Source of the DNA: a virus
Length of the DNA: 31,879 bases
Reading direction: 5' to 3' (one strand)
IMG/VR virus record: IMGVR_UViG_3300009149_003749
Span: 1 to 31,879 of that record
In this document: positions 1 to 14,695 of the stretch, one piece after another
Position numbering within the stretch: position 1 is the stretch's first letter
How the letters are laid out: every line of letters begins with the position of its first letter
Notes under the pieces: model-generated
The model's database searches: none
Seen by the model: only the letters and a program-made list of their open reading frames with translations
What the model was told of the DNA's origin: nothing
Position numbers and translations under genes: made by a program

Positions 1-31
1 CATTCTTAGGTGTACTAACTAAAATAACGTA

Positions 32-49
32 GATTAGATTTCTCTAATC
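32..49. other. Perfect 7-bp hairpin near left edge
   Basis: The arms GATTAGA and TCTAATC enclose a four-base loop (TTTC on plus, GAAA on minus). It lies just beyond the last minus-strand gene, so it could end that operon, but the sequence after it on the minus strand (TACGTTATTTT) is only moderately T-rich. It may equally be an RNA stabiliser. Confidence 0.4.
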
Positions 50-66
50 AGAGTCTGGTGAACAGT

Positions 67-390
67 TTAACTCCTCCTCACAGAGAAGCCCATAGTTGTC
101 GTAGACACTATGGGTGATTCACTCGATTCTCTTTTGTAAGAATTAAATTCATGAAGACCAACTCTTTCTGAGTTTGTTAGAAACCCTCCAATCCTTTTTA
201 AACCAAAGTCTATATGTTTTATAATACTTCCTCTACTCATACCAAAAGATACAGTACCACCGTATCTAGGACGTTTACCGAATTTATTAAATTTCAAACG
301 GCGAAGTTTTCTCTTCCAAAAGGGTATCTTTTTAATTATTTTAATTTTTCGGTTCCCATTTTTCACAGGTTTTAATTCGTGGTGCAACAC
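67..390 (-). CDS. Small very basic protein, unknown function
   Basis: I do not recognise this protein. It would be up to 107 residues, rich in Lys and Arg in its first half (for example KIIKKIPFWKRKLRRLKFNK) and ending in FSVRRS. The longest form starts with GTG at 390, inside the preceding cysteine protein, giving a 50-base overlap in another frame; a second GTG at 366 is also possible. Neither has a clear Shine-Dalgarno sequence, so expression would rely on translational coupling. The basic composition would fit nucleic-acid binding, but that is only inference. It could be a chance open frame. Confidence 0.4.
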   Translation of the reverse strand: MLHHELKPVKNGNRKIKIIKKIPFWKRKLRRLKFNKFGKRPRYGGTVSFGMSRGSIIKHIDFGLKRIGGFLTNSERVGLHEFNSYKRESSESPIVSTTTMGFSVRRS

Positions 391-559
391 TTGGTTGATG
401 TGAAATCTCTAGTTCATCTATTTCATTAACTACGTCTGAAGTGTGTTCCATGTCATACATACATAATTCAAATGTATTATCATGAGTCATAACAGTTCCA
501 AATCTACACGTTGAACAAGTTTTATTTAATCTTATATTCTCTTTTAATTTCCAATTCAT
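341..559 (-). CDS. Small cysteine-motif protein, possible zinc binding
   Basis: A 72-residue protein with Cys15-x2-Cys18 near the start, Cys33 in the middle and a closing CEKWEPKN segment. Small phage proteins with a CxxC pair and a late Cys followed by a WEP-like tail are common, and the four cysteines could hold a metal ion, but the role is unknown. The ATG at 559 has an AGGAG sequence eight bases upstream, so this start is well supported. It follows rtcB by about 30 bases on the same strand and is probably cotranscribed with it. Confidence 0.75.
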   Translation of the reverse strand: MNWKLKENIRLNKTCSTCRFGTVMTHDNTFELCMYDMEHTSDVVNEIDELEISHQPSVAPRIKTCEKWEPKN

Positions 560-588
560 AAATATTCTCCTAATTTAAATATCTTATA

Positions 589-1791
589 TTATTTTCTTCT
601 TTTTTTATATTTAGCTTTAAGAGTAGCCATAGGGGTAAGTTCAGATATTATTTCAACTAAATCAGTTTGATCTTTCATAACTATTGATATATCCTTATAT
701 GCACCATCTGATTCTCCTAAATCATCCTTACTATTAAGAGTGTGTACAGTTCCTAAATCATCTAGTTTTTTACGTTCTTCTTCAAAATCAAGATTTTTAA
801 TAGCAGCGGTTATACTCATAGATCTTCCAGCACCATGGCTACAGGAATTAAAACTTCTTTTATTACCCAACCCACGAGCAATATAACTATGAGATCCTTG
901 AGATCCGGGTATTAAGACGATTGTTCCTTCTCTGGCCATAACAGAACCTTTCCTATGTACCATTACATTTTGGTTGTAATGATTTTCCATAGCTGCATAA
1001 TTATGTTTTGTATCAACCATGTCATAAAATATAATACCAGGAAATTCATTTCTAAAAATATCTTTAATTCTATTCATCATAAGAAGCCTATTAGCAGCAG
1101 CAAACCTAATACAAAAATCCATTTCTTTTCTATATAAATATGCTTCTTGTGTATCTATTGGTAAGAATGCAAGATCCCATTTAGTAGGTATAGATGAAAA
1201 CCATTTCTCATTTAATTTTTTTGCTATATCATTGTAATGATCACACACACGGTTTCCTAAGTTTCGACTTCCAGAATGTAACATTATTCCTACATTTTCA
1301 TCTTCGTCTACTTGAAATTCTATAAAATGGTTTCCTCCTCCTAGTGTACCTAGTTGTTTTAAGGCACTTTCATATTGTTCACCTACTACTGTATTCTCTA
1401 AACCAGGCATATCGTTCAATGGCATTAATGAAATATCTTGTTTTTCTTTATGATGATTCTTTCCTAAAGGTATAACCTTCCTTATTTCATCCATTAGTCT
1501 TTTACGAGTCCCCTTTGATAATTCTTCCTCATACAGATTGGTTTTTACAAAAGATACACCACATCCTATATCTTTTCCAACTGCATATGGTATTATTACA
1601 TCTTTAGTAGCTATAATAGACTCTATAGGCATACCATATCCTTTATGACACCCACCCATTAGTGCAATATGATGAAATGCAAAAGGCAAATTAGCTAAAT
1701 GCATTGCTTGGTTTAATGCACCTTCTTCTAGATTTTTTAAATCTAACCACATCATTATTGGTATTGGCCCAGTTGATATTACATGTTTCAT
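589..1791 (-). CDS. rtcB: RtcB-type RNA ligase
   Basis: RNA-splicing and repair ligase that joins 2',3'-cyclic phosphate or 3'-phosphate ends to 5'-hydroxyl ends using GTP and Mn2+. The 400-residue length matches bacterial RtcB. Counted from the chosen start, family motifs are DIGCGV (Asp74, Cys77), GGGNHF (His155), LHSGSR (His172), IPGSQGSHSYI near 295, and SCSHGAGR, whose His319 corresponds to the guanylylated histidine. The frame is open to 1854, but ATG 1791 has AAGGAG upstream (CTAAAAAGGAGAATAAAATG) and begins the conserved fold, so I prefer it. No archease gene is visible beside it. In a phage the likely use is repairing tRNAs or other RNAs cut by host anticodon nucleases or toxins; this is inference. 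Metal and catalytic residues all look intact. Confidence 0.95.
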   Translation of the reverse strand: MKHVISTGPIPIMMWLDLKNLEEGALNQAMHLANLPFAFHHIALMGGCHKGYGMPIESIIATKDVIIPYAVGKDIGCGVSFVKTNLYEEELSKGTRKRLMDEIRKVIPLGKNHHKEKQDISLMPLNDMPGLENTVVGEQYESALKQLGTLGGGNHFIEFQVDEDENVGIMLHSGSRNLGNRVCDHYNDIAKKLNEKWFSSIPTKWDLAFLPIDTQEAYLYRKEMDFCIRFAAANRLLMMNRIKDIFRNEFPGIIFYDMVDTKHNYAAMENHYNQNVMVHRKGSVMAREGTIVLIPGSQGSHSYIARGLGNKRSFNSCSHGAGRSMSITAAIKNLDFEEERKKLDDLGTVHTLNSKDDLGESDGAYKDISIVMKDQTDLVEIISELTPMATLKAKYKKRRK

Positions 1792-1822
1792 TTTATTCTC
1801 CTTTTTAGAAATAATCCATAAA

Positions 1823-2566
1823 TTAAAGTTGTGGTAATTCAATACCATTATCAAATATTGTATTTATATCTCCTCTAAAATCAATATTATTAGAGAATTT
1901 TGTATCCATAAATTCTTTTAATTTTTCTACACCATATTCACATATAAAGGTTGATACAAAAAACATAATATTATCTCTATATCCTTTAATAGAATAAATA
2001 TCCTTATTTAAATAAAGAGACCAAGTTGTTTCAAATTCTGTAAGTGTTATACACATTAATCTTGGCCCAAATATGTATTATGTACGGGTGTTTGAAACGC
2101 GTCTCCAATAGTTTGATATCAACAAATAATTATTAAAACGTTTTAAATTTTTCAGATGAGTAAATAATATTAACGATGCTTTAGATTCTACAGTGTAAAC
2201 ATGATTTAAATTATTTAGATTTAATATAGGAGAAAAATCACGAGCAGGTGATCCAAACATATTTAATTCTACAATACTATTAGAATTTTTAAGGAATGAT
2301 AAATCTTTAACATTGGTATCCATTAAATTCAGATATTTCAAATGTTTTAAATTTGATATATATTCTAACTTTTTTAGTTTACACCCAATTAAAACTAATT
2401 TTTCTAAATTAGGCATGTACTCTAAAAAAGATAATACAATATTACATTTGTCAAAATAATGATTATTTATATTAAATTCTGTTTCGTTTTTTAATGTTTT
2501 ACAATAATCATTATTGTTTAATTCTTCTAAAAAATCGGTATATTCTGATTTTCTTGTTATATTCAT
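1823..2566 (-). pseudogene. Leucine-rich-repeat protein interrupted by an in-frame TAA (copy B)
   Basis: Two open stretches, 2078-2566 (162 residues) and 1823-2056 (77 residues), are in the same frame and are separated only by a TAA at 2078-2080 and seven sense codons. The first part has LRRs of the LxxLxLxxxxL type (LEKLVLIGCKLKKLEYI, LKYLNLMDTNVKDLSFL). The second part aligns with the C-terminal region of the neighbouring intact LRR protein, ending FDNGIELPQL against MNDGIKL. Together they give about 247 residues against 263 for the neighbour. ATG 2056 has no Shine-Dalgarno sequence, so the second part is unlikely to be a separate gene. ATG 2566 follows AAAAAGG. This is a nonsense-interrupted paralogue, a readthrough gene or a sequence error. 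LRR domains bind proteins; the partner is unknown. Confidence 0.8.
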
Positions 2567-2585
2567 ATTAGATACCTTTTTATAA

Positions 2586-2643
2586 TTATGATATTAAAAT
2601 TTCTTCATTTAGGAAGAACGTCACAACTTGAAGTTGCGGTAGT
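2586..2643 (-). repeat. Buried coding tail of the LRR family, copy A
   Basis: Read on the minus strand, this stretch encodes CELPQLQVVTFFLNEEILIS and then TAA, one frame away from the LRR gene that ends at 2644. Bases 2586-2639 match 31711-31764 at 47 of 54 positions, and all seven differences are transitions. The same PQL codons end LRR copy B at 1823. It therefore looks like the original C-terminus of the family, cut off here by a frameshift. It contains the near-palindrome CAACTTGAAGTTG. Confidence 0.75.
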
Positions 2644-3435
2644 TCACAATTTAATTCCATCATTCATAATAAGATGTTTTTGTATATCTTCTGATAATAT
2701 CATATATGAATTATCTAATATTAATTTCTTAACTTGTTTGGGTGAATATTTTTTGAATATAATATCTAAGAAATCCATAATGTATTTTTTATCTTTTATT
2801 TTGGCATTTATTAATAATATAAAATCATCAATATTTAACAACCAACCATTAGAATAACAGTGAATTGTAACACCATTAAAAGGATTTGTTTTGTTTTCTA
2901 CACCATATCTAAATTCACATGGTTTATTCCTTGCAGCACAACTTGAATAATACCAATATCTATTTTCTTCTACAATTGTAGAAAAATTAACAGTTTTTAA
3001 ATTTGGTATTTTTGATAATGTTTCAGATGTTATCTGTGTAGTTCTACAAGATAATGATATTAATTTTTTTAATTTTAGTAATGGATCAAAGACTTTTACT
3101 TTATTCAATCCAGTTATTGAGAGATATTGTAAACTTTTTATAGATGATATAGGTGTTAAATCAGTAATTTCAAAATTATAATCCAAATTAAGTTGTATTA
3201 AATTAGTTAAATTTTTTAAAGGAGTTATATCTACTATTCTATTTTTGTCTAAATATGCATAGTGTAGATTTGTCATTTTAGACATAATTGATATATCTTT
3301 TACATTACTAGTTGGTAACAGTTCCAATGATGATATTTTATCTAGAGATTTATCTTTTTCGTTTATACCTGCTTGTCTAAATCCTTTTTCTATTGCAGCA
3401 CTCATGCCTCTAGATACATTATATTTGTTTGCCAC
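2644..3435 (-). CDS. Leucine-rich-repeat protein (copy A)
   Basis: A 263-residue protein with no signal peptide or membrane segment, so probably cytoplasmic or virion-borne. Residues ~40-165 hold repeats of the internalin/SDS22 pattern (LxxLxxLxLxxNxIxDxxPL), for example IVDITPLKNLTNLIQLNL and ITDLTPISSIKSLQYLSI. Residues ~165-263 form a distinct C-terminal region with Cys178 and Cys184. Such domains bind other proteins, but no partner is evident. The start is GTG 3435, with AAAGGGG upstream. Compared with copy B, the 3' end carries a seven-base insertion just before ACCGCAACTT; it shifts the frame so translation stops after NDGIKL instead of running on to 2586. The gene lies in a row of minus-strand accessory genes. 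Confidence 0.85.
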   Translation of the reverse strand: MANKYNVSRGMSAAIEKGFRQAGINEKDKSLDKISSLELLPTSNVKDISIMSKMTNLHYAYLDKNRIVDITPLKNLTNLIQLNLDYNFEITDLTPISSIKSLQYLSITGLNKVKVFDPLLKLKKLISLSCRTTQITSETLSKIPNLKTVNFSTIVEENRYWYYSSCAARNKPCEFRYGVENKTNPFNGVTIHCYSNGWLLNIDDFILLINAKIKDKKYIMDFLDIIFKKYSPKQVKKLILDNSYMILSEDIQKHLIMNDGIKL

Positions 3436-3496
3436 TTATATCCCCTTTGCAACAAGTGTTTGTTAAATATTTAAAATTTTTTGAAATAAAATCTTG

Positions 3497-3901
3497 TCAT
3501 TCGGTAGTTTTATCATGATTGTATTTTATTAGATGATCTATGTAGCTTTTATCATTGCCATTTTCCTTCATAAATAATATAGAAGAAATTATTCGTAACA
3601 TGAGGATGTCCTGGCGAAAATCTTTAAATAACATTTTAAATAATGCTATTATAGCCAAAGGGTTTGTCTTTAATTGATATGATTCCATATGTCCAACTTC
3701 TTTGATATCAAAAATATCATCACTTAATTCTGAACAATATACACTATTTATATACCATTTAAAAAGATATCCCATATCTAATCCCATCCTCGAAAGAATG
3801 TATATAGTTTTTTGTGTTTTTGTATGATTGATCGTATTTATTTGACTTATTAATTCTAATTCTTTTAAAACTAAAAATAACTTTTCTGATCTTGTAATCA
3901 T
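3497..3901 (-). CDS. YwgA/Panacea (DUF4065)-like protein
   Basis: A 134-residue protein from ATG 3901, chosen because AAGGAG lies upstream (ATTAAGGAGATATAAAATG); the frame is open further to 3937 without a better site. The segment around residues 28-62, KTQKTIYILSRMGLD followed by FKWYINSVYCSELSDDI, resembles the YwgA and Panacea/SocA-like families, whose hallmark is KxQKxxYLL then Y.F.WY.YGPYS.EL. Members of those families occur as phage-associated proteins and as antitoxin domains. The glycine-proline of the usual YGPYS is replaced by NSVYC. No toxin gene is obvious next door, so a toxin-antitoxin role is not claimed. Confidence 0.6.
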   Translation of the reverse strand: MITRSEKLFLVLKELELISQINTINHTKTQKTIYILSRMGLDMGYLFKWYINSVYCSELSDDIFDIKEVGHMESYQLKTNPLAIIALFKMLFKDFRQDILMLRIISSILFMKENGNDKSYIDHLIKYNHDKTTE

Positions 3902-3923
3902 TTTATATCTCCTTAATTTGATA

Positions 3924-4097
3924 TTAAATTTTTTCAATCTTCCAATGTTTTGATAAACAATAGGATTTTATAAAGTTTATATTTTTGCCATTCATCCATT
4001 TTAGTATGGGTGCTGTTTTTATCACAATATTGTTTTTAGTAAATATACCTGCTACAAAATAATATGATGATATCCGATATAATATGTTTTCTTTCAT
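3924..4097 (-). CDS. Small conserved phage-type protein, unknown function
   Basis: About 57 residues from ATG 4097. The pattern YYFVAGIFTKNNIVIKTAPI then LKWMNGK and a final KSYCLSKHWKIEKI resembles a small protein widespread in phages (xAGIVxxNGxVxxAAPILxWMxGK...C..KGW.VxxI) for which I know no function. An upstream TTG at 4163 would extend it, but the extension covers the late-type motif and has no fitting ribosome-binding site. The ATG has only a distant AGGG, so initiation is probably weak. It is the first gene of the leftward accessory block. Confidence 0.6.
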   Translation of the reverse strand: MKENILYRISSYYFVAGIFTKNNIVIKTAPILKWMNGKNINFIKSYCLSKHWKIEKI

Positions 4098-4142
4098 GAT
4101 TTTAAATACCCTGCTTAAAACCTGTTTATAAAAAATTTTATT

Positions 4143-4159
4143 GAGGACAAACTGTAAAT
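4143..4159 (+). promoter_or_regulatory. Late-type motif, copy a, with no gene downstream
   Basis: GAGGACAAACTGTAAAT differs from the consensus GGACAAACTTTAAA at one base. Unlike the other six copies it is followed directly by two hairpin terminators rather than an open frame. Confidence 0.55.
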
Positions 4160-4161
4160 AC

Positions 4162-4201
4162 AAGTCACCTTAAAATACAGCCCCTCATAGGTGACTTTTT
4201 T
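4162..4201 (+). terminator. Intrinsic terminator 1 before the tail tube gene
   Basis: A nine-base stem, AAGTCACCT with AGGTGACTT, ends in a run of six T on the plus strand. No plus-strand gene precedes it in the window. Confidence 0.65.
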
Positions 4202-4203
4202 GT

Positions 4204-4240
4204 AGACCGATTTTCTTACATGAAAATCGGTCTTTTTTTA
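4204..4240 (+). terminator. Intrinsic terminator 2 before the tail tube gene
   Basis: A perfect twelve-base stem, AGACCGATTTTC with GAAAATCGGTCT, encloses the loop TTACAT and is followed by a long T run. It is the strongest terminator in the window and points rightward. Confidence 0.85.
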
Positions 4241-4289
4241 TTAGGATGTCCATATAGGTTACTCTAAATTGATTTATCCATAGAAATAC

Positions 4290-4306
4290 GAGGACAAACT
4301 TTAAAT
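4290..4306 (+). promoter_or_regulatory. Late-type motif, copy b (tail tube)
   Basis: GAGGACAAACTTTAAAT lies 33 bases before the tube ATG, after two terminators. The position fits a dedicated promoter for an abundant virion protein. Confidence 0.65.
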
Positions 4307-4339
4307 AAGAAATATAAATAATATAAGGAGGAATTTATT

Positions 4340-5077
4340 ATGGGTTTTGTAAATAGTTTTGCAGCATTGGAAACAAATAGTTTTTCAAGAAAATGGGGAG
4401 GCGGGGGAGATGGTTCTGCTGTTGACCCTTATATATCAGGTTATTTTTTTACACATTGGGCATATTTACCACCTAAGTTGGGTGAGAATATAGCAAAGGC
4501 TGGTGGTCCAGATGGTTTAACAGACGAGAAGGAAGCTCGTAGAATAATGAGAGCATCCTGTCTTGGTGTTACACTTCCTGGTGGAACAGTAAATAAAGCT
4601 GAGTTTACAGGACTTGGTGGGGTCAAATGGTCTGTTCCTACTAATGTAGAATTTGATAATACTGTAACAATTAAATTCTTAGAATTTTCGACCCCTCCAA
4701 TCATGTCTATAATTAGTGGGTGGGTAAGAATGATGAGAGATTACCGTTCAGGTACTACTAATTTGGTTGGTGATGAAGGTGAATATACAAAGAGTAATTA
4801 TGCAGGAACAATGTATTATTACACAACTAAACCAGATGGTAAATTGGTAGAATATTATGCTTGTTTGACAGGTATGTATCCACTTAAAGATCCTATGGAT
4901 CAATATGGTGGGGATATTACTACATATGATAAGTTAGAACTAGATATTGATTTTAATACGGACTGGGTTTGGAGAGAAGACTGGGTTAGAAGTAGGTGTC
5001 AAGCTATATCTGATACAGTTTATGGTGAAAGAGAAACTACTGTTCATAATTATGGTCCAGACGGACCAGAAGCATAA
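4340..5077 (+). CDS. Tail tube protein (T4 gp19-like)
   Basis: A 245-residue soluble virion protein that should stack as rings to form the inner tail tube. The support is the beta-rich tube pattern: VEFDNTVTIKFLEFSTPPI followed by a helix ISGWVRMMRDYRSG, then YYYTTKPDGKLVEYYACLTGMYPL and KLELDIDFNTDW, which resembles the paired strand and helix blocks of myovirus tube proteins. The length is larger than T4 gp19 (about 163 residues), with a glycine-rich N-terminus and a short proline/glycine tail. ATG 4340 is preceded by AAGGAGG. It stands alone as a single-gene unit with its own late-type motif and terminator, as expected for one of the most abundant structural proteins. No sheath gene is in this window. 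Confidence 0.8.
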   Translation: MGFVNSFAALETNSFSRKWGGGGDGSAVDPYISGYFFTHWAYLPPKLGENIAKAGGPDGLTDEKEARRIMRASCLGVTLPGGTVNKAEFTGLGGVKWSVPTNVEFDNTVTIKFLEFSTPPIMSIISGWVRMMRDYRSGTTNLVGDEGEYTKSNYAGTMYYYTTKPDGKLVEYYACLTGMYPLKDPMDQYGGDITTYDKLELDIDFNTDWVWREDWVRSRCQAISDTVYGERETTVHNYGPDGPEA

Positions 5078-5098
5078 ATCTTAGAATAACGTTTTTTA

Positions 5099-5140
5099 AA
5101 GAAAAGGGATGATTCCAAATCATCCCTTTTCTTCTATATA
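5099..5140 (+). terminator. Terminator between tube gene and convergent minus-strand genes
   Basis: A perfect fifteen-base stem, AAGAAAAGGGATGAT with ATCATCCCTTTTCTT, and a five-base loop. The plus strand continues T-rich (TTTTCTTCTAT), so it ends the tube transcript. It can also fold on the minus strand and may stop the convergent operon, with a poorer T run. Confidence 0.85.
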
Positions 5141-5141
5141 A

Positions 5142-5375
5142 TCAATCTCCATTTCCAAGTCTATAAATAATTTTTACCAACAATATTATAATTAGGATAA
5201 CATTAAGAAAGACTAGAATATTAAAAGGGTACATGTGAAAATTACGAATACCAACTAGTGTCCATATTAAACCTGTTGCTGACCATATTATCACACTATC
5301 AACTTCAAGGTTAGTTCTACCTACCCTTAATAATGCAAGACTAACGCAAAACAAAGAAACAAGCACAAAAATCAT
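5142..5375 (-). CDS. Small membrane protein
   Basis: A 77-residue hydrophobic protein with about three membrane segments (roughly 2-16, 28-42, 51-70) and a charged tail, KIIYRLGNGD. It is not recognised. ATG 5375 overlaps the stop of the preceding gene by four bases (ATGA), so translation is probably coupled. Its size and topology resemble its two upstream neighbours, suggesting a divergent duplicate. A holin or other envelope role is possible but nothing in the sequence shows it. Confidence 0.65.
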   Translation of the reverse strand: MIFVLVSLFCVSLALLRVGRTNLEVDSVIIWSATGLIWTLVGIRNFHMYPFNILVFLNVILIIILLVKIIYRLGNGD

Positions 5376-5623
5376 AACAATTCTCCTTTTCTATTTTTTG
5401 CTATTTTTAATCCCTCGCGTGTAGTTTTCGATACTAATAGAATAATTAAAATTAAATTAATAATTAATCCATTAAAATTATTAATAGATATACAAATATT
5501 AATAAACCAACAACTAAATACAATAAACCACCCAATCTGTATAAACAAATTCCAATTAATAAAAGAATCAAATAGAACAAATAACAAATTCACAATACAT
5601 AAAAAACAAAAAAGATAAATCAT
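5372..5623 (-). CDS. Small membrane protein of the MIYLF-leader family
   Basis: An 83-residue protein beginning MIYLFCF with three hydrophobic stretches (about 1-18, 25-48, 52-66) and a basic C-terminus, TREGLKIAKNRKGELL. The start and the upstream AGAAAGGAATAAAATG block are nearly identical to those of the genes starting at 5914 and 6673, so these genes arose by local duplication. The function is unknown. It overlaps the next gene by four bases. Confidence 0.7.
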   Translation of the reverse strand: MIYLFCFLCIVNLLFVLFDSFINWNLFIQIGWFIVFSCWFINICISINNFNGLIINLILIILLVSKTTREGLKIAKNRKGELL

Positions 5624-5662
5624 TTTATTCCTTTCTGACCTTTCGGAGTTTAAATTAAAATA
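5613..5662 (-). repeat. Shared leader element, copy 1
   Basis: The upstream region, ribosome-binding site and first codons (AGAAAGGAATAAAATGATTT) are shared with copies at 5904-5955 and 6663-6715. An adjacent block, TTTCGGAG then TTTAAATTAAAA, is also alike in copy 3. Confidence 0.7.
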
Positions 5663-5671
5663 ATGTTATAA

Positions 5672-5914
5672 TTATCCAACAGGGTCAAATAATTGAAGCC
5701 ATAATAATATAATTAAAAAAACATTCCAAAGAAATACAATCCCATATTCGGGTTGTAAAAAAACAAAATAAATATTTAAAGAATGCATAACAAAATATAT
5801 AATAAAACTGATTCTTTTAATAATGCTTTTTTTAAAAATATTCCCACCACTACAAAAACAAACTACAATAATAAATATGTTTGCAATTATTGAAAATCCA
5901 AAAAGGTAAATCAT
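5672..5914 (-). CDS. Small membrane protein of the MIYLF-leader family
   Basis: An 80-residue protein beginning MIYLFGFSIIANIFIIVVCF, with further hydrophobic segments at about 34-52 and 58-76. The leader matches that of the CYTH protein next upstream. ATG 5914 is preceded by AGAAAGGAATGAA, giving a good ribosome-binding site. Cysteines 19 and 21 lie at the end of the first segment, but there is no lipobox. The function is unknown; it is probably cotranscribed with the CYTH gene. Confidence 0.7.
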   Translation of the reverse strand: MIYLFGFSIIANIFIIVVCFCSGGNIFKKSIIKRISFIIYFVMHSLNIYFVFLQPEYGIVFLWNVFLIILLWLQLFDPVG

Positions 5915-5955
5915 TTCATTCCTTTCTATCCTTTTTAGGTGTTATTAATTAAAAG
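5904..5955 (-). repeat. Shared leader element, copy 2
   Basis: The upstream and start region of the gene at 5914 closely matches the elements at 5613 and 6663, including the AGAAAGGAAT ribosome-binding block and MIYLFGF codons. Confidence 0.7.
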
Positions 5956-6673
5956 GATTTTTCTTAAAAGTTATTTCGGGTGTATTATTGTTTATACATT
6001 CTTCAGAGACTCCATATTTTTTATTATATAATGTTCCTACTGAATCGAATATAGCCATCGAATAATCAAATCCCAATTTCTCAGTAATTATTTTTACCTC
6101 TTTTTCATTTGCTCCTTCTATTTCTACAAGTGGTTCAAGAAAGGGCCATTCATCAATAACAATTTCAACATTATTTAATTCCCAGATCTCCCTTTTTGTT
6201 TCTTGGTATGATTTTTTAATACAACCACATTCTTTAATAAATCTTTCTGCTTTATCATAATCATCAACAACAAGACAAATCTCTTTCCTTCCTTTGATTC
6301 CTCCACCTTTATATGCTTTTATACTTAATGTTACCTTATCGTTTTCATATCTAACTCTCAAATATGTATCTTTTGATTTTCCTCGTGGTGGGTGAAATAC
6401 ACTTCTCCTTTGCATAAATTCTTCCTTAACCAAGTTGGCTCCTATTTTTCTCAGTTTTTTCCTTATATTTTCTTTATTCACATTAGAAAACATTGCCTCA
6501 TATTCTATATCCATATTTGTTTCGCATTCTATATTCGTAACTGCTTCATGTTCTATATTCATAGAGGGTCTTAGAAATAATAATTTAAATATTTTATTAA
6601 ACAACTTAACTCTTGGTAAATATAAAACCAATAATAAATTTTCTAAAACTAAAAAACCAAAAAGATAAATCAT
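5945..6673 (-). CDS. Membrane-anchored CYTH-domain protein (triphosphate tunnel family)
   Basis: A 242-residue protein. Residues 1-20 (MIYLFGFLVLENLLLVLYLP) form a membrane segment shared with the small neighbours. Residues ~55-222 fit the CYTH fold (class IV adenylyl cyclase, thiamine triphosphatase, triphosphatases): an IExEx strand (Glu57, Glu59), TYLRVRYE (Arg106, Arg108), LSIK (Lys119), KEICL (Glu131), TKREIWEL (Lys160, Arg161), VIDEWPFLEPLVEIEG (Asp174, Glu184, Glu186). These line the tunnel that binds a triphosphate and metals. The Lys of the ExExK signature is Met61 here, so activity is uncertain. Residues 39-62 repeat the IExE strand three times. Substrate may be a nucleotide or other triphosphate; cyclic AMP synthesis is not established. 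ATG 6673 has AGAAAGGAAT. Confidence 0.8.
   Translation of the reverse strand: MIYLFGFLVLENLLLVLYLPRVKLFNKIFKLLFLRPSMNIEHEAVTNIECETNMDIEYEAMFSNVNKENIRKKLRKIGANLVKEEFMQRRSVFHPPRGKSKDTYLRVRYENDKVTLSIKAYKGGGIKGRKEICLVVDDYDKAERFIKECGCIKKSYQETKREIWELNNVEIVIDEWPFLEPLVEIEGANEKEVKIITEKLGFDYSMAIFDSVGTLYNKKYGVSEECINNNTPEITFKKNPFN
6488..6559 (-). repeat. Three imperfect 24-base tandem repeats inside the CYTH gene
   Basis: Units encode NIEHEAVT, NIECETNM and DIEYEAMF. The first twelve to fifteen bases of each (A/G ATATAGAA...) are nearly the same. Only the last unit is placed as the first strand of the CYTH domain. Confidence 0.75.
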
Positions 6674-6715
6674 TTTATTCCTTTCTATCCTTTCGGATGT
6701 TATAAATTAAAAAAT
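6663..6715 (-). repeat. Shared leader element, copy 3
   Basis: The start region and upstream block of the CYTH gene match the elements at 5613 and 5904, including AGAAAGGAATAAAATGATTT. Confidence 0.7.
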
Positions 6716-6792
6716 GAACCGTGTTAATATCTATATCATAATTTAATATATATAGTTTCACCAATATTTCTTCTGGGTTGTAATCTAGAAAA
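6716..6792 (-). promoter_or_regulatory. AT-rich divergent region, likely promoter of the leftward membrane/CYTH operon
   Basis: On the minus strand TTGGTG is followed after 18 bases by TATGAT, a loose fit to a sigma-70-type promoter. The leftward operon has no copy of the late-type motif, so it may be expressed at another stage. The assignment rests only on this weak match. Confidence 0.3.
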
Positions 6793-6809
6793 AAGGACAA
6801 ACTTTAAAC
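6793..6809 (+). promoter_or_regulatory. Late-type motif, copy c (sugar-modification cluster)
   Basis: AAGGACAAACTTTAAAC lies 21 bases before the ATG at 6831 and is the only copy before the 8.5-kb cluster of glycosyltransferase and methyltransferase genes. Confidence 0.65.
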
Positions 6810-6830
6810 AAATAAATAATGGGGGGTATA

Positions 6831-7853
6831 ATGGAATTAATAAAAATAAAATCACCAAAAATTTTAAAAGATGTTAAAATAAAACAACCACTAGATAAAT
6901 ATCCTATAACCGTATGTATAGTAGGAGCATTTAGCGTACCATATTCTAATAACATATTATTAGCCGATGCCTTTGAAAAACTAGATGGTGTAGAAAAAGT
7001 TATAAGATACGATTATAGAAAACGCTTAAAAACTGAAGGTAATAAAATACTTTTGAGTATTAGAGAAATTGCTCATAAGACAGATCTTATGATAATTTGT
7101 AAAGGTAGTTATTTACATAAGGAATTTTTTGAGAAATCTGTCCATATGTGCAGGGTTATATATTGGATGATGGATGTTTTTACACATTTTAAATCATTGA
7201 AGGGTTTATTAAGTAATACGACTATATGTGATTATAGATCTGCAACTGGATATGATACTGCATATAAAATGATGGAAGAAACAAACCTTCCTATATATCA
7301 AGTATTAGATGGTGCAGATTTAAGTGTATATTATCCTGAAAACGAAAAGAAAATATATGATGTTACATTTATAGGGACGGCAGATAATGAACGAATTAAA
7401 ACTAGAGACTTTCTAAAAAGTAAAGGTATTCAGACAAATTTTATAGGACCAGGTTTTACAAGTTATATTCCACCAAATGAATTTAGAAAGGTTTGTAATC
7501 AGAGTAAGATTGTTTTAAATATTAGTAGAGGAAATTATGTAGGATATTCCTCAATTAGAATTTGGAATCTAATGGCGTGTGAGTCATTTGTATTAACTAA
7601 AAGAATAGCTGAAATAAATAAATATTTAGGGTTGACTATTGGTAAAGAACTATCAGAATATATAAACATCGATGATTTGGAACATAAAATTTTATGGTAT
7701 CTGGATCATGATGATAAAAGAAAAGAAATAGCTAAGAACGGGTTAGAGTTTGTTAGAAACAATAGAACATGGAAAGAGACAGCAGAGAGTTTTATGGTTT
7801 TAGCTTATAATGAAGAAGGTCGTAGTAAGTTTAAGAAGATAGTCTTAAAATAG
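6831..7853 (+). CDS. CgeB-like glycosyltransferase (GT-B fold)
   Basis: A 340-residue cytoplasmic glycosyltransferase that should move a sugar from an activated donor to an unknown acceptor. The N-terminal half (ITVCIVGAFSVPYSNNILLADAF) resembles the acceptor domain of CgeB/DUF3880-type enzymes. The C-terminal half has VTFIGTADNERIKTRDFL, then IVLNISRGNYVGYSSIRIWN and LMACESFVLT, the donor-domain signature of the Glyco_trans_1_2 family, and the closing helix WKETAESFM. ATG 6831 follows GGGGGG; an in-frame ATG at 6819 would put that G run inside the gene, so I chose the later one. It is the first gene of the cluster after motif c and resembles the frameshifted gene at 13139 in family. Confidence 0.8.
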   Translation: MELIKIKSPKILKDVKIKQPLDKYPITVCIVGAFSVPYSNNILLADAFEKLDGVEKVIRYDYRKRLKTEGNKILLSIREIAHKTDLMIICKGSYLHKEFFEKSVHMCRVIYWMMDVFTHFKSLKGLLSNTTICDYRSATGYDTAYKMMEETNLPIYQVLDGADLSVYYPENEKKIYDVTFIGTADNERIKTRDFLKSKGIQTNFIGPGFTSYIPPNEFRKVCNQSKIVLNISRGNYVGYSSIRIWNLMACESFVLTKRIAEINKYLGLTIGKELSEYINIDDLEHKILWYLDHDDKRKEIAKNGLEFVRNNRTWKETAESFMVLAYNEEGRSKFKKIVLK

Positions 7854-7861
7854 AAAAAATT

Positions 7862-8638
7862 ATGATTGAACATTATTGGGTATTATCAACAGGTCGTTGT
7901 GCAACAGTTACACTAACTAGATTATTTCAATTGTGTCCAACTGCAAATTCTTATCACGAAGTAGCTCCTAGATTATTTGGTATAGGACGAGATGCATATA
8001 AATATTATAATAATAACAAAGAAACAGATAAGATAAGAAAAAAGTTTTTAGAAAAGAGAAGAGCCCTATTTAAAAAGGCAGAGGCCGAAGAAAAGAAATA
8101 TATTGAAGTAGGCCCACATGTTACATTCTTACCTTATATTATAAACTCAATATTTCCTGACTCTAAATTTATACACTTGATAAGGAACCCAGAAGATGTA
8201 ATTATATCTGGTCTTAATAGGGATGCTTATATAAATGACTCTTCAGACAAACTAAGAATACGACCTAGACTAGAATCAGAACATTTTAAAGATTGGGAAA
8301 AATATACTCAGTTGCAAAAATTAAGTTGGTTTTGGATGACTACTAATCAATGGATTTCTGATTTTATGAGAACATTACCAAATGAAAGAAAATTGTTGAT
8401 TCATTCCGAAGATATATTTGAAAATAATAAGGATGTTATTAATAACATTTTTAAGTTTGTGGGTTTGCCCAAACCAAATAAAGTAGATATAAACAATATA
8501 TTAAATAAGAAATTAAATGCTACAACAAATAAAAAAGTTAAGATATTAACAGACGACGAATTTAAAATAATGAAAAGTTTTGTTAATTCAATTGCTAATA
8601 ACCTAGAGGAGATGTATAATGGAAACAGAAGATGCTAA
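7862..8638 (+). CDS. Sulfotransferase-like protein
   Basis: A 258-residue P-loop sulfotransferase, expected to transfer sulfate from PAPS to a hydroxyl on a sugar or other acceptor. The 5'-phosphosulfate loop is VLSTGRCATVTL (residues 7-18). The 3'-phosphate site is FIHLIRNPEDVIISGLNR with Arg108 and Ser116. The strand before it (KYIEVGPHVTFLPYII) and a C-terminal ITGFVGLP-like segment, IFKFVGLPKP, also fit. The ATG at 7862 has no clear Shine-Dalgarno sequence and lies eight bases after the previous stop, so coupling is likely. The next gene starts within its last 20 bases. Sulfation in a phage sugar cluster is uncommon. Confidence 0.8.
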   Translation: MIEHYWVLSTGRCATVTLTRLFQLCPTANSYHEVAPRLFGIGRDAYKYYNNNKETDKIRKKFLEKRRALFKKAEAEEKKYIEVGPHVTFLPYIINSIFPDSKFIHLIRNPEDVIISGLNRDAYINDSSDKLRIRPRLESEHFKDWEKYTQLQKLSWFWMTTNQWISDFMRTLPNERKLLIHSEDIFENNKDVINNIFKFVGLPKPNKVDINNILNKKLNATTNKKVKILTDDEFKIMKSFVNSIANNLEEMYNGNRRC

Positions 8639-9287
8639 AATAAACTATAATAAAAAAGTTTATAATATAAGAGGAGAGAAATATAGTCACCTTTTCAAAA
8701 CAATAAGAGCTAAACGATTCTATGAACTAGATTTACTAGAAGCTATTCGTAGTAGAAGAAGAAAAGGTATATATATCGACGCTGGTGCTAATATTGGGAA
8801 CCATTCTATATATTTTGCAGGAGAGTGTCTAAGTACAAAAGTATATTCGTTTGAGCCATATCCTTACACATTTAATATATTAAAATATAATATAGAATAT
8901 AATAATTTTAAAGAAAAAATAGTAGGACAAAATGTAGCACTATCTGATAGGTTATGTTATCTAGGTATAAAGCTTCCTACAAACATATGTAATATAGGAC
9001 GAATTGAAATGGTCGAAGGTGGTGAGGAAGTAAGATGTTCCACTTTAGATGTGTCTTGTCTAGATCCTTGTATTAAAGATGATATCGCAGTTATAAAAAT
9101 AGATGTACAATCCTATGAAATAAAGGTATTGAGGGGTGCTGTAGGAGTATTAGAAAAATATAAACCATTATTATCTATAGAGTGTACTACACTACGAGAA
9201 CTTAAACAAGTTGAAACCTTTTTAAGACCCTATAATTATAAAAGAGTAGGTAAATATTGTGCTACACCTACTTATATATTTGAATAG
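8619..9287 (+). CDS. FkbM-family methyltransferase
   Basis: A 222-residue SAM-dependent O-methyltransferase. Motif I is YIDAGANIGNHSIYFA (about residues 51-66), followed by VYSFEPYPYTFNILKYNI (acidic Glu at the end of strand 2) and the FkbM hallmark VIKIDVQSYEIKVLRGA near 160-176. Enzymes of this family methylate hydroxyls on sugars or other small groups. The start overlaps the sulfotransferase gene by 20 bases; GAGGAG just before the ATG fixes it. A second FkbM gene lies at 12261, and the two are divergent. Confidence 0.85.
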   Translation: METEDAKINYNKKVYNIRGEKYSHLFKTIRAKRFYELDLLEAIRSRRRKGIYIDAGANIGNHSIYFAGECLSTKVYSFEPYPYTFNILKYNIEYNNFKEKIVGQNVALSDRLCYLGIKLPTNICNIGRIEMVEGGEEVRCSTLDVSCLDPCIKDDIAVIKIDVQSYEIKVLRGAVGVLEKYKPLLSIECTTLRELKQVETFLRPYNYKRVGKYCATPTYIFE

Positions 9288-9295
9288 GGGGAACT

Positions 9296-9976
9296 ATGAA
9301 CATCAAGAAAAAGATTTTCAACCAGCCTTTAAAAATGATAGGTGATAGAGCTATAATGAATGATAGAATTATTGAAGTACCATTTGTCCATTCTCAGATA
9401 TTTAAGGATAGTTTAATGGGAAAATCTCTATTGGATTTTGGTTGTGCTTATAGTCCTTTGGTTTTAGAAGCAGCGTCTATGGGATTCAAAACGTTGGGCG
9501 TTGATATAAGAAACTATCCTTTTAAACACCCAAATTTAACTCTATATAAAGGAAACTTTTTGAACTATAAAGATACTATACAATTTGATTATATAGTTGC
9601 ACTATCGGCTATAGAGCATATAGGTTTACAAGAGTATGGTGGTTTTTTGAAGGATAAAAATAGTGATTTTTCAAATATTATAAATAAATTACATCAGTTA
9701 TTAGCACCTAATGGAAAATTCATAGCAACCTTTCCAGTAGGAAAAGAATATATGGATGAGAGAACAAGATCTTTTACACCTAGACAAGCAAGAGATATAT
9801 TTAAATTTAAAGACACTAGAGTAATTTCAGAAAGATTTTTTGCCAAGAATAAAGATCATCAGTTTATACCTACTACTTATGATACTATTAAAAATATATC
9901 TAATGCTGCTAAAGATTGTCCGTTGAGAGGATCTAATGGGACAGGTTGTTATACGTGGGAGAAAATCAGTGAATAA
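9296..9976 (+). CDS. Class I SAM-dependent methyltransferase
   Basis: A 226-residue protein with SLLDFGCAYSPLVLEAASMG as motif I (about 44-63), LGVDIRNYPF as the strand-2 acidic motif, and FDYIVALSAIEHIGL as the motif IV region, then a LAPNGKFIATFPVG strand. This is the general Methyltransf_11/23 pattern; the substrate cannot be told. ATG 9296 follows GGGGGAAC. It lies between the FkbM gene and a family 2 glycosyltransferase, so its acceptor is probably a sugar intermediate made by this cluster, which is inference. Confidence 0.8.
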   Translation: MNIKKKIFNQPLKMIGDRAIMNDRIIEVPFVHSQIFKDSLMGKSLLDFGCAYSPLVLEAASMGFKTLGVDIRNYPFKHPNLTLYKGNFLNYKDTIQFDYIVALSAIEHIGLQEYGGFLKDKNSDFSNIINKLHQLLAPNGKFIATFPVGKEYMDERTRSFTPRQARDIFKFKDTRVISERFFAKNKDHQFIPTTYDTIKNISNAAKDCPLRGSNGTGCYTWEKISE

Positions 9977-10709
9977 TAATTTTGTTATATTCTCGTCAGG
10001 TTATAACTGTGAGAAATTTGTTGAAAAAAATATAGATAGTGTTAAAAATCAAACATATAAAAATTTTAAACATATAATAGTAGATGATGCATCATCGGAT
10101 AATACATATAAAAAAATTATAAGCATTGATACATTTAACGAATTTATATATAGTAATATACTAAATAAAGGGTGGTTAGAAAATTCTGTTAAATATTTAA
10201 GTCCTAATGTAGAAGATGGTGATATTATAGTTATATTGGATTTAGATGATTGGTTATATGATAATAATGTTTTAGAGAAGATTAATAATATTTATAATGA
10301 AACAAATTGTTGGACCACATATGGAACTGCCTTACAAACAAATACCAATAAAGAAATATATTCTATAGGATATCCTAGAATCACAATACAACATAGAACA
10401 TTTAGGAACGGGCCTTGGTACTGGCAACATCTTAGGACATTTAAAAGTTTTTTATGGAAAAATCTTAAAGATAAAAGTTTGAGGGGACCAGATGGTAATT
10501 ATGGAAAGGGTGCGTATGATAGAGCTATAGGATATCCTATTTTAGAAATGTCACCCCCAGATAAAATCTTATATATTCCAGATATTTTAATGTATTATAA
10601 TCGTAATAATAATCTAAATTTAGACAAGGTAAATAGGAAAGTACAAAAAGAATTATGTTCACATTTTCAAAGTTTACCGATGTATGATATATTAGAGAGA
10701 ATTCTATGA
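9969..10709 (+). CDS. Family 2 glycosyltransferase (GT-A)
   Basis: A 247-residue inverting glycosyltransferase. It has the GT2 start VIFSSGYNCEKFVEKNIDSV, then NFKHIIVDDASSDNT (residues 33-47) for nucleotide binding, and IVILDLDDWLYD, whose D91-L-D-D is the metal-binding DxD. GTG 9969 is preferred because GGGAG lies seven bases upstream; the frame opens earlier at 9936, inside the previous gene, without a site. It overlaps the stop of the methyltransferase by eight bases and the next gene by four, indicating coupled translation. Its acceptor is unknown. Confidence 0.85.
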   Translation: MNNNFVIFSSGYNCEKFVEKNIDSVKNQTYKNFKHIIVDDASSDNTYKKIISIDTFNEFIYSNILNKGWLENSVKYLSPNVEDGDIIVILDLDDWLYDNNVLEKINNIYNETNCWTTYGTALQTNTNKEIYSIGYPRITIQHRTFRNGPWYWQHLRTFKSFLWKNLKDKSLRGPDGNYGKGAYDRAIGYPILEMSPPDKILYIPDILMYYNRNNNLNLDKVNRKVQKELCSHFQSLPMYDILERIL

Positions 10710-11644
10710 GAATTTTCGTAGATGGTGGTAAAAGAATAGCAATCACTAGACTCTTTCCCACCTGGAGAGAATTAGGACATGAAATTACAGATGACCCTAA
10801 TAATTCTAATGTACAATTATCGATCGTTAAAATAAGAAAAATAACAAATCTTCCTGTAATTTTAAGATTGGATGGTGTATATTATGATAAGGCAGATGAT
10901 TATAACAAAAGAAATAAACCTATAAATATGGCATATGGTATTGCTACAGGTGTTATCTATCAGAGTCATATGGCTAAAATGATGTGTGAGAAATATTTGA
11001 CTATAAAAAAACCAAAAATATATGATATAATATATAATGGTATTGATAATACAGATTGGGAACCACCAAAAAAACACAATGATATAAATATTGTAGCATG
11101 TTCTGTTTGGAGAAGGGTAAAAAGACTGCCAGAAATAATTGAAGTTTTTAAGGATTTTCTAGAAATATATCCTAATTCAAAACTACATATCATAGGGGGG
11201 TTATACAAAGACACCTATAAAATAAATCATCCAAATATCATTTATTATGGACAAATGGGGTTTGATCATATAAAAGAAATATACAGAATATGTGATATTT
11301 TTTTACATTTGTGTAAAAAAGATTCCTGCCCCAATGTTGTTGTTGAAGCAATTGCTTCTCAGTTACCAGTTATTACAACAAATGTATGCGGTGGTTCAAC
11401 AGAAATGTGTGAAATGACAAAAGGATGTGTTGTTGTAAACGAATGCATTGATAATATAGAACCTGATTATATTTATAAAGAGTGTTATAATAAAATATCC
11501 AAAAGAACAAAGGAAGATATAATATATAATATGATTGATATTATTAAAAATAAAACTAAGGTAGTATTACCAGAAAAATTAATGATTAAAAATACAGCAA
11601 GAAGATATATTGATATTATGAAGAAAGTTGAGGTATATATATGA
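10706..11644 (+). CDS. Family 4-type glycosyltransferase (GT-B)
   Basis: A 312-residue retaining-type glycosyltransferase. The N-terminal half is MRIFVDGGKRIAITRLFPTW and LPVILRLDGVYYD. The donor half has YDIIYNGIDNTDWEPP, VACSVWRRVKRLPEIIEVFK, KLHIIGG and the E-x7-E signature region CPNVVVEAIASQLPVITTNV with CGGSTEM. These are the usual landmarks of GT4 enzymes. The start overlaps the previous stop by four bases (ATGA), and so does the next gene. A TATATATA run spans its stop and the next start. The sugar used is unknown. Confidence 0.85.
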   Translation: MRIFVDGGKRIAITRLFPTWRELGHEITDDPNNSNVQLSIVKIRKITNLPVILRLDGVYYDKADDYNKRNKPINMAYGIATGVIYQSHMAKMMCEKYLTIKKPKIYDIIYNGIDNTDWEPPKKHNDINIVACSVWRRVKRLPEIIEVFKDFLEIYPNSKLHIIGGLYKDTYKINHPNIIYYGQMGFDHIKEIYRICDIFLHLCKKDSCPNVVVEAIASQLPVITTNVCGGSTEMCEMTKGCVVVNECIDNIEPDYIYKECYNKISKRTKEDIIYNMIDIIKNKTKVVLPEKLMIKNTARRYIDIMKKVEVYI

Positions 11645-12264
11645 AAATTGGTGATTATAAATCAGTTGATATAATAGATTTTCAAATAAAAGAGCACTCT
11701 CTATTGAAAAGCAAACAACTAACACAGAAAAGAAAAAAATTAAGATTGGGAGATATCAAATTAATAAAAAATTTATTTCCTAATGCAATAAATGTGTTAT
11801 GTATAGGATGCCGAGATGATTCAGAAGTTCAAGATTTTATTGATAATGGATTTAATGCTATTGGAATAGATATTTCTAATAATACAAAATTAATAAAAAA
11901 CATAGATGCACATGAATTAAATAAACATTTTAATAATATTGATGTTGTATATGCATCACATTCTTTAGAACATATGTATAATCCTAATATAGTTATGAGT
12001 CATATTAAAAATATTACAAAACAAGGTATATTAATATTATTACCAGAATTAACACAGGAACCAACACCAAAACACCCATCTGTTTTTGAAATAATGAGAA
12101 TAGATAAAGAGAATATGAATATATTCAAACAACCATTTGATTTTAAAGAGATATGGTCAGATTTTGAACCACTTGCACCCTTTGATATATTACATGGTGG
12201 TTTTAGAGAAGGTGTAACTGAAAGAGAAGTATTTGTATGTTTAAAACTAAAGGAGATTATATGA
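11641..12264 (+). CDS. SAM-dependent methyltransferase (Methyltransf_11-like)
   Basis: A 207-residue protein. INVLCIGCRDDSEVQDFI corresponds to motif I, although the usual G-x-G is reduced to IGCRDD. NAIGIDISNN and VYASHSLEHMYNP (motif IV, HSLEH) support a small-molecule or sugar methyltransferase. The ATG overlaps the previous stop, and GAGG lies upstream, separated by a TA repeat. The altered glycine loop means that SAM binding is probable but not certain. Confidence 0.7.
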   Translation: MKIGDYKSVDIIDFQIKEHSLLKSKQLTQKRKKLRLGDIKLIKNLFPNAINVLCIGCRDDSEVQDFIDNGFNAIGIDISNNTKLIKNIDAHELNKHFNNIDVVYASHSLEHMYNPNIVMSHIKNITKQGILILLPELTQEPTPKHPSVFEIMRIDKENMNIFKQPFDFKEIWSDFEPLAPFDILHGGFREGVTEREVFVCLKLKEII

Positions 12265-13133
12265 AATATTTTGAAGGGCGTGTTGGGAATTTTAATATAA
12301 GAGTTAATGCAAACGAGGGTGGAATACACGCTGATCTTCGTAAAATTTCAAAAAATGGTGGGGAGAGGGAACCTGGATTATTACACATTTTAAAATCTGA
12401 AGTAACTAATGGAATGACATGTATTGACTTAGGTGCTAATATAGGGTATGTTACTTTGTTATTAGCTGATATAGTTGGGCCACATGGTAAAATTTTTGCA
12501 ATAGAACCAGATCCTAATAATGTAGAATTACTAAAGAATAATATAAAAATTAATAAATTTGAAGAGAGGACAAAAATATTTCAAATGGGTATATCGAATA
12601 TAAAAGGTGTTTCTGATTTTTATATTGGTCTGAGTTCAAACTTAGGAGGAATGATAAAGAGACATAATACTAATAGCGATCCAATAAAGATAAAGATAGA
12701 TACATTGTCAAATTTTTGTAAAGAATATGATATACCAGACCTAATTAAAATGGACATAGAAGGTTATGAGGTTGAAGTTTTAGAGGGGATGTTTGATATA
12801 ATAAAGGAAAGATCTGATCCATGTAAAATTGTTATGGAATTGCACCCTGTTTATTATTCTAAAGAACATAGCCTAGAATATTGGATGAATAAATTTATAA
12901 ATTATGGATTCCATACTAAATATATAGTTTCTGCAGGAGTACCAATCCCTGATATGTTTAAAGAATGGAAATATTCACCTATAAAGGTTTTTAGTTCTGG
13001 TAGAGGCTTATATAATAATTTTTCAGATGAACATATGTTAATATCATGTTGTCATACAAACAAACAATTAATATCCCCAAAAAGAGGATTCTCTCCAAAA
13101 ATTGCACGATTTGTTTTAATAGAAAGAACATAA
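12261..13133 (+). CDS. FkbM-family methyltransferase, second copy
   Basis: A 290-residue SAM-dependent methyltransferase with CIDLGANIGYVTLLLADIVG as motif I, IFAIEPDPNNVELLKNNI, IKIDTLSNFCKEYDIPDLIK and MDIEGYEVEVLEGMFDII, the complete FkbM series. It is about 70 residues longer than the first copy at 8619, mostly at the C-terminus (SPKRGFSPKIARFVLIERT). ATG 12261 is fixed by AAGGAG six bases upstream and overlaps the previous stop by four bases. The target is probably a sugar hydroxyl. Confidence 0.85.
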   Translation: MKYFEGRVGNFNIRVNANEGGIHADLRKISKNGGEREPGLLHILKSEVTNGMTCIDLGANIGYVTLLLADIVGPHGKIFAIEPDPNNVELLKNNIKINKFEERTKIFQMGISNIKGVSDFYIGLSSNLGGMIKRHNTNSDPIKIKIDTLSNFCKEYDIPDLIKMDIEGYEVEVLEGMFDIIKERSDPCKIVMELHPVYYSKEHSLEYWMNKFINYGFHTKYIVSAGVPIPDMFKEWKYSPIKVFSSGRGLYNNFSDEHMLISCCHTNKQLISPKRGFSPKIARFVLIERT

Positions 13134-13138
13134 GAATA

Positions 13139-14094
13139 ATGAAGATTTTGTATATATATATAGAGAATATGAGAACAGAAGGAAAAGATATGCTAAAGAA
13201 ATATCTAAATTGAATCATGATGTTTTTTGTATAGAAACTAAAGGAAAAATAAAAAAGAATCAGATAAATGAAGATATGATAAAAAAACATAACCCGAATA
13301 TAGTTTGGTTGCTTTCACCATTTTATGTACAAAATGAAGTTATATCTAAATGTACTATATCGTATTTGAAACAAAAACAAATACCAATAGTGTGTTATAG
13401 TACCTTTAATACACAAATTCCTTATAACAAACAAGATGATTTATGGAAAGTTTTTGATTTCTTTTTTGCTCAAAATATTGATTTTTATAATCATCTAAGG
13501 AAAATAAATGTAAACGCCTATTATATACCTTTAGGATTTTACCCAGATCAATATTATTATATACAAGAGACAACAAAGAAAATACAAATCTCTTTTAGTG
13601 GTAATCCGCAAACAACTGTAGAAACTGAATATGATAAGAGAACAAATTATCTAAAAAGTTTAAATGATTTTAATATAAAAATTTATGGAAAAAGATTTTC
13701 TGAAAGAGGTCTTAATGCTATATCATATAATACACATAAAGAAGAAAATAATATTTATAATATTAGTAAAATAAATTTGGATCTTCCTTTTATAAATTCG
13801 TCTTTGGATTTTTATAAAAATAAATATCATATAAAAAACAGATTTTTTGAGATACCAGCTTCCAATAACTTTTTACTAAGTAGTAAATATAGCGAGGCTT
13901 TGAATATATTAGATGAAACCATGATAGGTTATTATGATGATAATGTTGAATCTTTAAAATATACAATAAATAAATATATTAAAGACGAAAAACTGAGACT
14001 TAAAATGTCAAAAAAGGCATATTCTGAAGTTTTAAACAAACACACATTTCATCATAGGTTTAAAAAAATGTTGTACATAATTGGAGAACTATAA
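13139..14094 (+). pseudogene. CgeB-like glycosyltransferase put out of frame by a (TA)6 tract
   Basis: From ATG 13139 the frame reads MKILYIYIENMRTEGK and stops at TGA 13211. The downstream frame, open through 14094, reads VYIYREYENRRKRYAKEISK and then LNHDVFCIETKG. Removing one TA from TATATATATATA (13151-13162) joins them into MKILYIYREYENRRKR and on, a typical start for this family, giving about 317 residues. The donor domain is recognisable: ISFSGNPQTTVETEYDKR, KNRFFEIPASNNFLLSS and the closing EVLNKHTFHHRFKKML. The gene is off, a slipped copy, phase-variable or a sequencing error. A shortened product from TTG 13210 is possible, with no good ribosome-binding site. Its relative at 6831 is intact. 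Confidence 0.8.
13151..13162. repeat. (TA)6 dinucleotide tract in coding sequence
   Basis: Six TA units sit thirteen bases into the frameshifted glycosyltransferase. Five or eight units would keep the gene in frame, six do not. Confidence 0.9.
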
Positions 14095-14690: not shown

Positions 14691-14695
14691 ATGAA

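Follow-up and report, generated by a model that had tools for sequence, protein, structure and literature searches.

We identified, in a 31,879-base virus record from IMG/VR (IMGVR_UViG_3300009149_003749; 29% G+C; the whole stretch is referred to here as the window), a gene for a CYTH-domain protein joined in frame to a membrane leader that is shared with two small membrane-protein genes lying next to it (Table 1). So far this leader–CYTH fusion has been seen on a single metagenomic contig, and no other CYTH protein was found to be built in this way. The fusion is real and unusual and its parts are individually known; its anatomy is solid, whereas we infer its function.

The product of the gene matched the Pfam CYTH family (E = 3e-8; 34.1 bits, passing the cut-off of 23.2) and, by sequence, SaTTM (E = 2.6e-5); its score against the cyaB model TIGR00318 was 40.8 bits, under the cut-off of 57.95. 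An AlphaFold model based on 26 sequences (the window protein and relatives) had a mean pLDDT of 83.7, with the CYTH domain mostly at 85–99, and comparison using Foldseek and a DALI-like aligner indicated that the modelled domain is an eight-strand CYTH tunnel, the fold that the initial annotation had proposed. The aligner gave Z scores of 17.6 for 2dc4 (2.2 Å over 156 residues), 17.5 for Yersinia CyaB and about 16 for SaTTM (16.3 for the SaTTM–ATP structure 7nsd), with mouse ThTPase (12.8) and Vtc4 (8.1, best among Vtc structures) more distant. As modelled, the domain has its structural place with archaeal and bacterial CYTH proteins.

Two observations concern where the protein begins. Translation from M1 is favoured over the internal ATGs at M38 and M54, because the Shine–Dalgarno sequence is good at M1 (AAGGA, at the usual spacing, 5 nt before the ATG), poor at M38 (AAG only) and absent at M54; initiation at residue 38 or 54, which had been named beforehand as the finding that would remove the leader, is thereby disfavoured. 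Both internal ATGs also fall inside a 24-nt unit that is triplicated in frame and encodes MNIEHEAV, TNIECETN and MDIEYEAM. Of the three, the last provides strand 1 of the CYTH barrel, and cellular relatives have a matching native N-terminus (MDIEYEAKF and MQIEYEATF). The captured gene would formerly have started at M54, that start having then been duplicated and the leader joined upstream.

Table 1 Features of the CYTH gene and its surroundings in the window
Feature	Position	Strand	Details
Membrane-leader CYTH protein, 242 aa	5945..6673	-	ATG start; Pfam PF01928; Shine–Dalgarno AAGGA
Leader residues 1-19, predicted transmembrane helix	6617..6673	-	hydropathy 2.15; model helix 6-17
Residues 20-35, basic amphipathic helix	6569..6616	-	model helix 20-33, moderate confidence; hydrophobic moment 0.33-0.46
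24-nt unit, three copies in frame, residues 38-61	6491..6562	-	repeat 79%
Met61, ExExK lysine position	6491..6493	-	E57-x-E59-x-M61
CYTH/TTM domain, residues 54-242	5948..6514	-	confident model and structure matches
Small membrane protein, 80 aa	5672..5914	-	three hydrophobic segments; leader present
Small membrane protein, 83 aa	5372..5623	-	three hydrophobic segments; leader present; basic C-terminus
Small membrane protein, 77 aa	5142..5375	-	three hydrophobic segments; without MIYLFGF leader
Perfect 16-bp inverted repeat	5099..5133	.	between convergent tail-tube-like gene and CYTH cluster

The leader belongs to a 102-nt direct repeat present in three copies (69–71% identity) over the gene starts at 5623, 5914 and 6673. 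The window contains its 19-nt core around the ribosome-binding site (RBS) and ATG, AGAAAGGAATRAAATGATT, exactly three times, compared to 0.14 expected (three mismatches allowed), and three occurrences were obtained in 0 of 100 shuffles. In the stretch between −20 and +20, the copies agree at 17–20 of 20 nt, with identity at background past about +60. Among the proteins, identity is 67% over 18 aa between the CYTH leader and the product of the 5623 gene, and the CYTH protein is 33% identical to residues 1–48 of the 5914 product. Codon differences among the copies are silent at Tyr3, Gly6, Asn12, Leu13 and Leu17 and the other changes mostly replace one hydrophobic residue with another, indicating that the shared stretch is translated. 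We ruled out a shared RBS as the sole basis of the similarity, since the similarity extends through codons 2–18 with some silent changes. An assembly chimera is also unlikely: the near-identical block covers ~30–40 nt at the start codon, and the junction (residues 34–54) lies in unshared sequence.

These results uphold the initial annotation in that the three genes have the leader and ~30 upstream bases in common and that the CYTH domain sits in frame behind a duplicated membrane leader, and they amend it in two respects. The leader sequence was given as MIYLFGF, but the copy at 5623 reads MIYLFCF; and only two small neighbours carry the leader, not three, as the start at 6673 is that of the CYTH gene itself and the remaining small protein (77 aa) lacks it. 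That protein starts with MIFVLV in another RBS context, is 27–30% identical to the other small proteins and is loosely similar in its C-terminal helix.

Within the leader, the predicted transmembrane helix carries Glu11 at its middle and was modelled at a pLDDT of <50 (residues 1–19), two points that weigh against a membrane anchor, which the hydropathy of 2.15 and the Shine–Dalgarno site at M1 favour. Five basic residues downstream of it (R21, K23, K27, K30 and R35) predict, by the positive-inside rule, an N-out/C-in orientation, and residues 20–35 align with the loop following helix 1 in the 5914 small protein. Because the leader consists of one hydrophobic helix and one basic amphipathic helix, the CYTH domain is predicted to lie on the cytoplasmic face.

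To place the CYTH domain among its relatives, the genomes of 84,980 species were scanned for kin and 380 Patescibacterial genomes were searched by profile. The closest kin are stand-alone Patescibacterial CYTH proteins (best identity 56%), among which the window sequence also falls in a tree; its exact sister is without strong support, and the second kin sample was drawn from Patescibacteria only, which bears on the exact donor group. These proteins, from Parcubacteria, Woesebacteria and kin (for example L054, L055, L053 and L017), resemble the window protein over the whole domain at about 46–56% identity, with an MDIEYEA-type start and the same catalytic ligands, and several likewise lack the ExExK lysine, having Thr. 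They are cellular genes and differ in having neither the membrane leader nor the triplicated first strand. Nearest kin are mostly ~190–215 aa long and begin at the CYTH strand; no membrane leader was present among the Patescibacterial CYTH open reading frames (ORFs) checked, and where a few relatives have a long open frame upstream, it is not a hydrophobic leader. No conserved gene context was found for the cellular kin, whose neighbours are mixed housekeeping genes (NUDIX, RadC, TatD and MetG-like). A 32.7-kb viral contig also has a Saccharibacterial-type stand-alone CYTH gene at its end (L080:1-591), before phage-like genes; the gene is possibly host DNA beside a prophage.

Scans of viral contigs (with the single protein and with an alignment), a leader-pattern search, tblastn against phages and the phage relatives yielded no homologue of the fused protein. 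T4-like phages RB49, Aeh1 and KVP40 carry CYTH proteins (PMC1524935), but these belong to another subfamily, with the motif at the extreme N-terminus, the lysine kept and no leader. The initial view that membrane-bound CYTH proteins are unusual holds for prokaryotes as far as checked, but not for eukaryotes, which have Vtc4 and plant TTM1; the latter is a mitochondrial membrane protein according to a reference title in PMC10218978, which indicates that eukaryotes have membrane-bound TTM proteins.

All 16 columns that are invariant in an alignment of 27 sequences (26 relatives and the window) are retained in the window protein (M54, E57, E59, R90, R106, R108, K119, E131, Q157, E158, R161, D174, P177, E184, E186 and V193), and in a larger set of 63 rows (62 relatives and the window) the ligand columns are still invariant and likewise retained. 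The metal and phosphate ligands are thus in place, including R90, R106, R108, K119 and R161 for phosphate and E184 and E186 of the late ExE. The exception is the ExExK hallmark, of which both glutamates are there and the lysine is absent. Of the 62 relatives, 50 carry Lys at this position, 11 carry Thr and one carries Ser; nearest kin mostly have Thr. By sequence, the protein is filed as a CYTH-fold member of a lysine-less branch and not as a canonical TTM enzyme. A triphosphate enzyme, as first proposed, is plausible, but the claim is weakened by the replacement of the hallmark lysine with Met, so that activity cannot be assumed.

Loss of the lysine was at one point considered a phage-specific decay, a reading withdrawn after the profile search of the 380 Patescibacterial genomes gave Thr or Ser in 12 relatives; the first 35 CYTH relatives had all carried Lys, in a set fetched partly by a K-or-M-only pattern. 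Thr in place of the lysine, with the other ligands kept, is found in Patescibacterial L052–L058, L065, L067, L070 and L079. We found no measurement of the effect of ExExT or ExExM on activity, and this branch poses a testable question on the TTM mechanism.

Published motif rules (Vogt et al. 2021, PMC8233210) bear on the substrate class: class IV adenylyl cyclases (AC-IV) follow HFxxxxExExK, with the second glutamate of the late ExE changed to Ala, and W/YxRxR marks thiamine triphosphatases and plant TTM1/2. The residues preceding E57 are ETNMDI, without the HF motif, and E186 is present, which excludes a class IV adenylyl cyclase (CyaB). Y104-L-R106-V-R108 fits the ThTPase-type motif, the first position being aromatic in 60 of 62 relatives, and on this basis a triphosphate with an aromatic head is weakly predicted as the substrate, which would make the protein a ThTPase-like triphosphate hydrolase. 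Mammalian thiamine triphosphatase has the same aromatic-x-R-x-R and late ExE but is only about 17% identical, and the window protein differs from it in the missing ExExK lysine and the added leader. SaTTM (Saci_0718) and other archaeal and bacterial TTM triphosphatases likewise have the eight-strand tunnel, late ExE and Arg/Lys phosphate ligands, whereas SaTTM, at about 24% identity, has the classical ExExK, Ala at the W/Y position and no leader.

Taken jointly, the explanation we consider best, and to which we give an even chance of being right, is that of a captured CYTH gene whose product is membrane anchored, with a cytoplasmic tunnel that hydrolyses triphosphate and small paralogues alongside. 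A tailed phage would have taken up a Patescibacterial-type stand-alone CYTH gene, which would have come to lie among small membrane-protein genes arrayed in tandem, in frame behind the RBS of one copy. Of that copy, the fusion would have kept the first of the membrane helices and the basic juxtamembrane helix, with helices 2 and 3 replaced. Its product would be signal-anchored at the host inner membrane, the CYTH tunnel facing the cytoplasm, where it would most likely bind and slowly hydrolyse a triphosphate whose head group is aromatic or a nucleoside (ThTP- or NTP-like) by the two-metal TTM mechanism. Co-expression with the small membrane paralogues is probable, and packing against them is possible; shared ancestry and gene order are what suggest such a partnership. 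Computation established the structure of the gene, the homology of the leader, the fold, the kinship, the retention of metal and phosphate ligands and the missing ExExK lysine; we infer how the protein sits in the membrane, its activity and substrate, any partnership and what the phage gains. If the tether is real, a prokaryotic TTM-fold enzyme has been brought to the membrane by being fused to a small membrane protein of the phage, and the locus preserves a direct record of how the fusion arose, from a tandem array and a captured gene, with the 24-nt repeat lengthening the junction.

Other accounts differ from this one mainly in what the anchored domain does. It may be a membrane-tethered binder of triphosphates (a sensor or sponge) that is catalytically weak or dead, as the Met at the hallmark lysine position would suggest and as a triplicated N-terminal strand might be tolerated if active-site geometry were relaxed; but every other ligand residue has been kept despite ~45% sequence divergence, and the nearest cellular kin are lysine-less too, yet persist across several Patescibacterial genomes, so a missing lysine is by itself no sign of decay. 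We regard this possibility as doubtful, though worth serious attention. Alternatively, the small proteins could be holin-like or act in superinfection exclusion, with the CYTH fusion a by-product of capture behind a strong RBS and leader and the tether without a role. At 77–83 aa, with three hydrophobic segments that fit a class I-like holin and, for one of them, a basic C-terminus, they have a suitable build, the region is an insert missing from relatives, and small accessory genes are repeatedly tandem-duplicated in this phage group. Against this, no holin or exclusion family was matched in Pfam, PHROG, NCBIfam or PADLOC (the 80-aa protein had no match of any kind there), yet holins diverge fast; and the fusion has kept the leader's frame, hydrophobicity and basic helix intact. 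On balance we find this account unlikely.

VTC is the nearest working analogy, one to which neither family nor structure tests assign membership. It combines TTM subunits with the small three-helix Vtc1 at a stoichiometry of 3 Vtc1 : 1 Vtc3 : 1 Vtc4 (PMC9911596), its TTM fold is attached to the membrane, and the TTM-fold protein described here has its first helix in common with small three-helix neighbours. One could thus imagine a machine in which the CYTH tunnel feeds a pore of small three-helix proteins and triphosphate or polyphosphate chemistry is coupled to transport. However, every VTC subunit, Vtc1 included, has a three-helix membrane domain and the fusion retains a single, N-terminal membrane helix; helix 1 lacks the basic residues of the VTC channel lining; no VTC/Vtc1-type Pfam family is present in the CYTH or small proteins; and the fold is nearer to archaeal TTM and AC-IV proteins (Z 16–17.6) than to Vtc4/Vtc2 (Z 8). 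VTC (SPX-TTM-TM) and plant TTM1 (kinase-TTM) are, moreover, eukaryotic and of other domain families. Such a machine is very improbable, and the same low standing applies to its fullest form, in which the CYTH tunnel, belonging to a branch that functions without the ExExK lysine, would dock via the shared helix on small three-helix proteins arranged as a ring; this phage-made complex would link the turnover of triphosphate to membrane permeability or transport while infection proceeds, as an independently evolved prokaryotic counterpart of VTC. Lowest of all we place signalling by, or degradation of, alarmones at the membrane, the role that the initial annotation had suggested: triphosphate compounds are CYTH substrates, but no (p)ppGpp or cyclic oligonucleotide synthetase, hydrolase or receptor was recognised nearby, PADLOC gave no match and the motif rules point to the ThTPase/TTM1-2 pattern, which leaves the idea scarcely credible.

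The setting of the CYTH gene is a fragment with myovirus baseplate genes that also encodes an RtcB ligase and a lysozyme-domain protein of 2,095 aa. In eight related records a tail-tube-like gene is followed after 131–744 nt by a baseplate-hub-like gene; in the window, 10.4 kb separates the two (4340-5077 and 15462-16076). The CYTH gene is part of this ~10-kb insert, which is missing from related phages, and 0 of 9 related phage records, several of them fragments, had a CYTH match. The CYTH cluster occupies the minus strand of the insert, and the plus strand has ten genes (glycosyltransferases, methyltransferases and a sulfotransferase) and one further, unassigned gene, with the cassette at 6819-15394 including FkbM and other methyltransferases. 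The inverted repeat beside the CYTH cluster is a possible bidirectional terminator, given no score by the terminator scan; sigma-70 and terminator scans of the window had yields not above chance. A Patescibacterial host was considered and set aside, the baseplate protein having matched 0 of 362 genomes in a search without a positive control.

Small accessory genes have been duplicated in tandem repeatedly within this phage group, so the origin of the shared leader is ordinary, but its fusion to a CYTH domain is not. In the related 223-kb record L005 (IMGVR_UViG_3300033141_006329), 22 head-to-tail minus-strand ORFs of about 93–125 aa adjoin the tail-tube-like gene (759-7756), ten of which form one detectable paralogous family while others pair up. 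Next to each other at 304-766 of the same record are the genes of two small membrane proteins, paralogues at 32% identity (E = 1.6e-9) that do not clearly resemble those of the window, and L007 has a series of five copies of a 62-nt repeat over tandem small minus-strand genes (429-2229).

Elsewhere in the window, an inorganic pyrophosphatase-like domain (PF18823, E = 6e-51; 17300-17812) lies within the baseplate module and is conserved in L003–L006, and a phage-encoded SET-domain protein (PF00856, E = 7e-5) is found at 29854-30453. Upstream of the tail-tube-like gene, L002, L004, L006 and L007 have a plus-strand ORF of 559–687 aa, which is replaced by minus-strand genes in L005 and in the window (1-4163), where two leucine-rich-repeat proteins are encoded side by side at 2078-3435.
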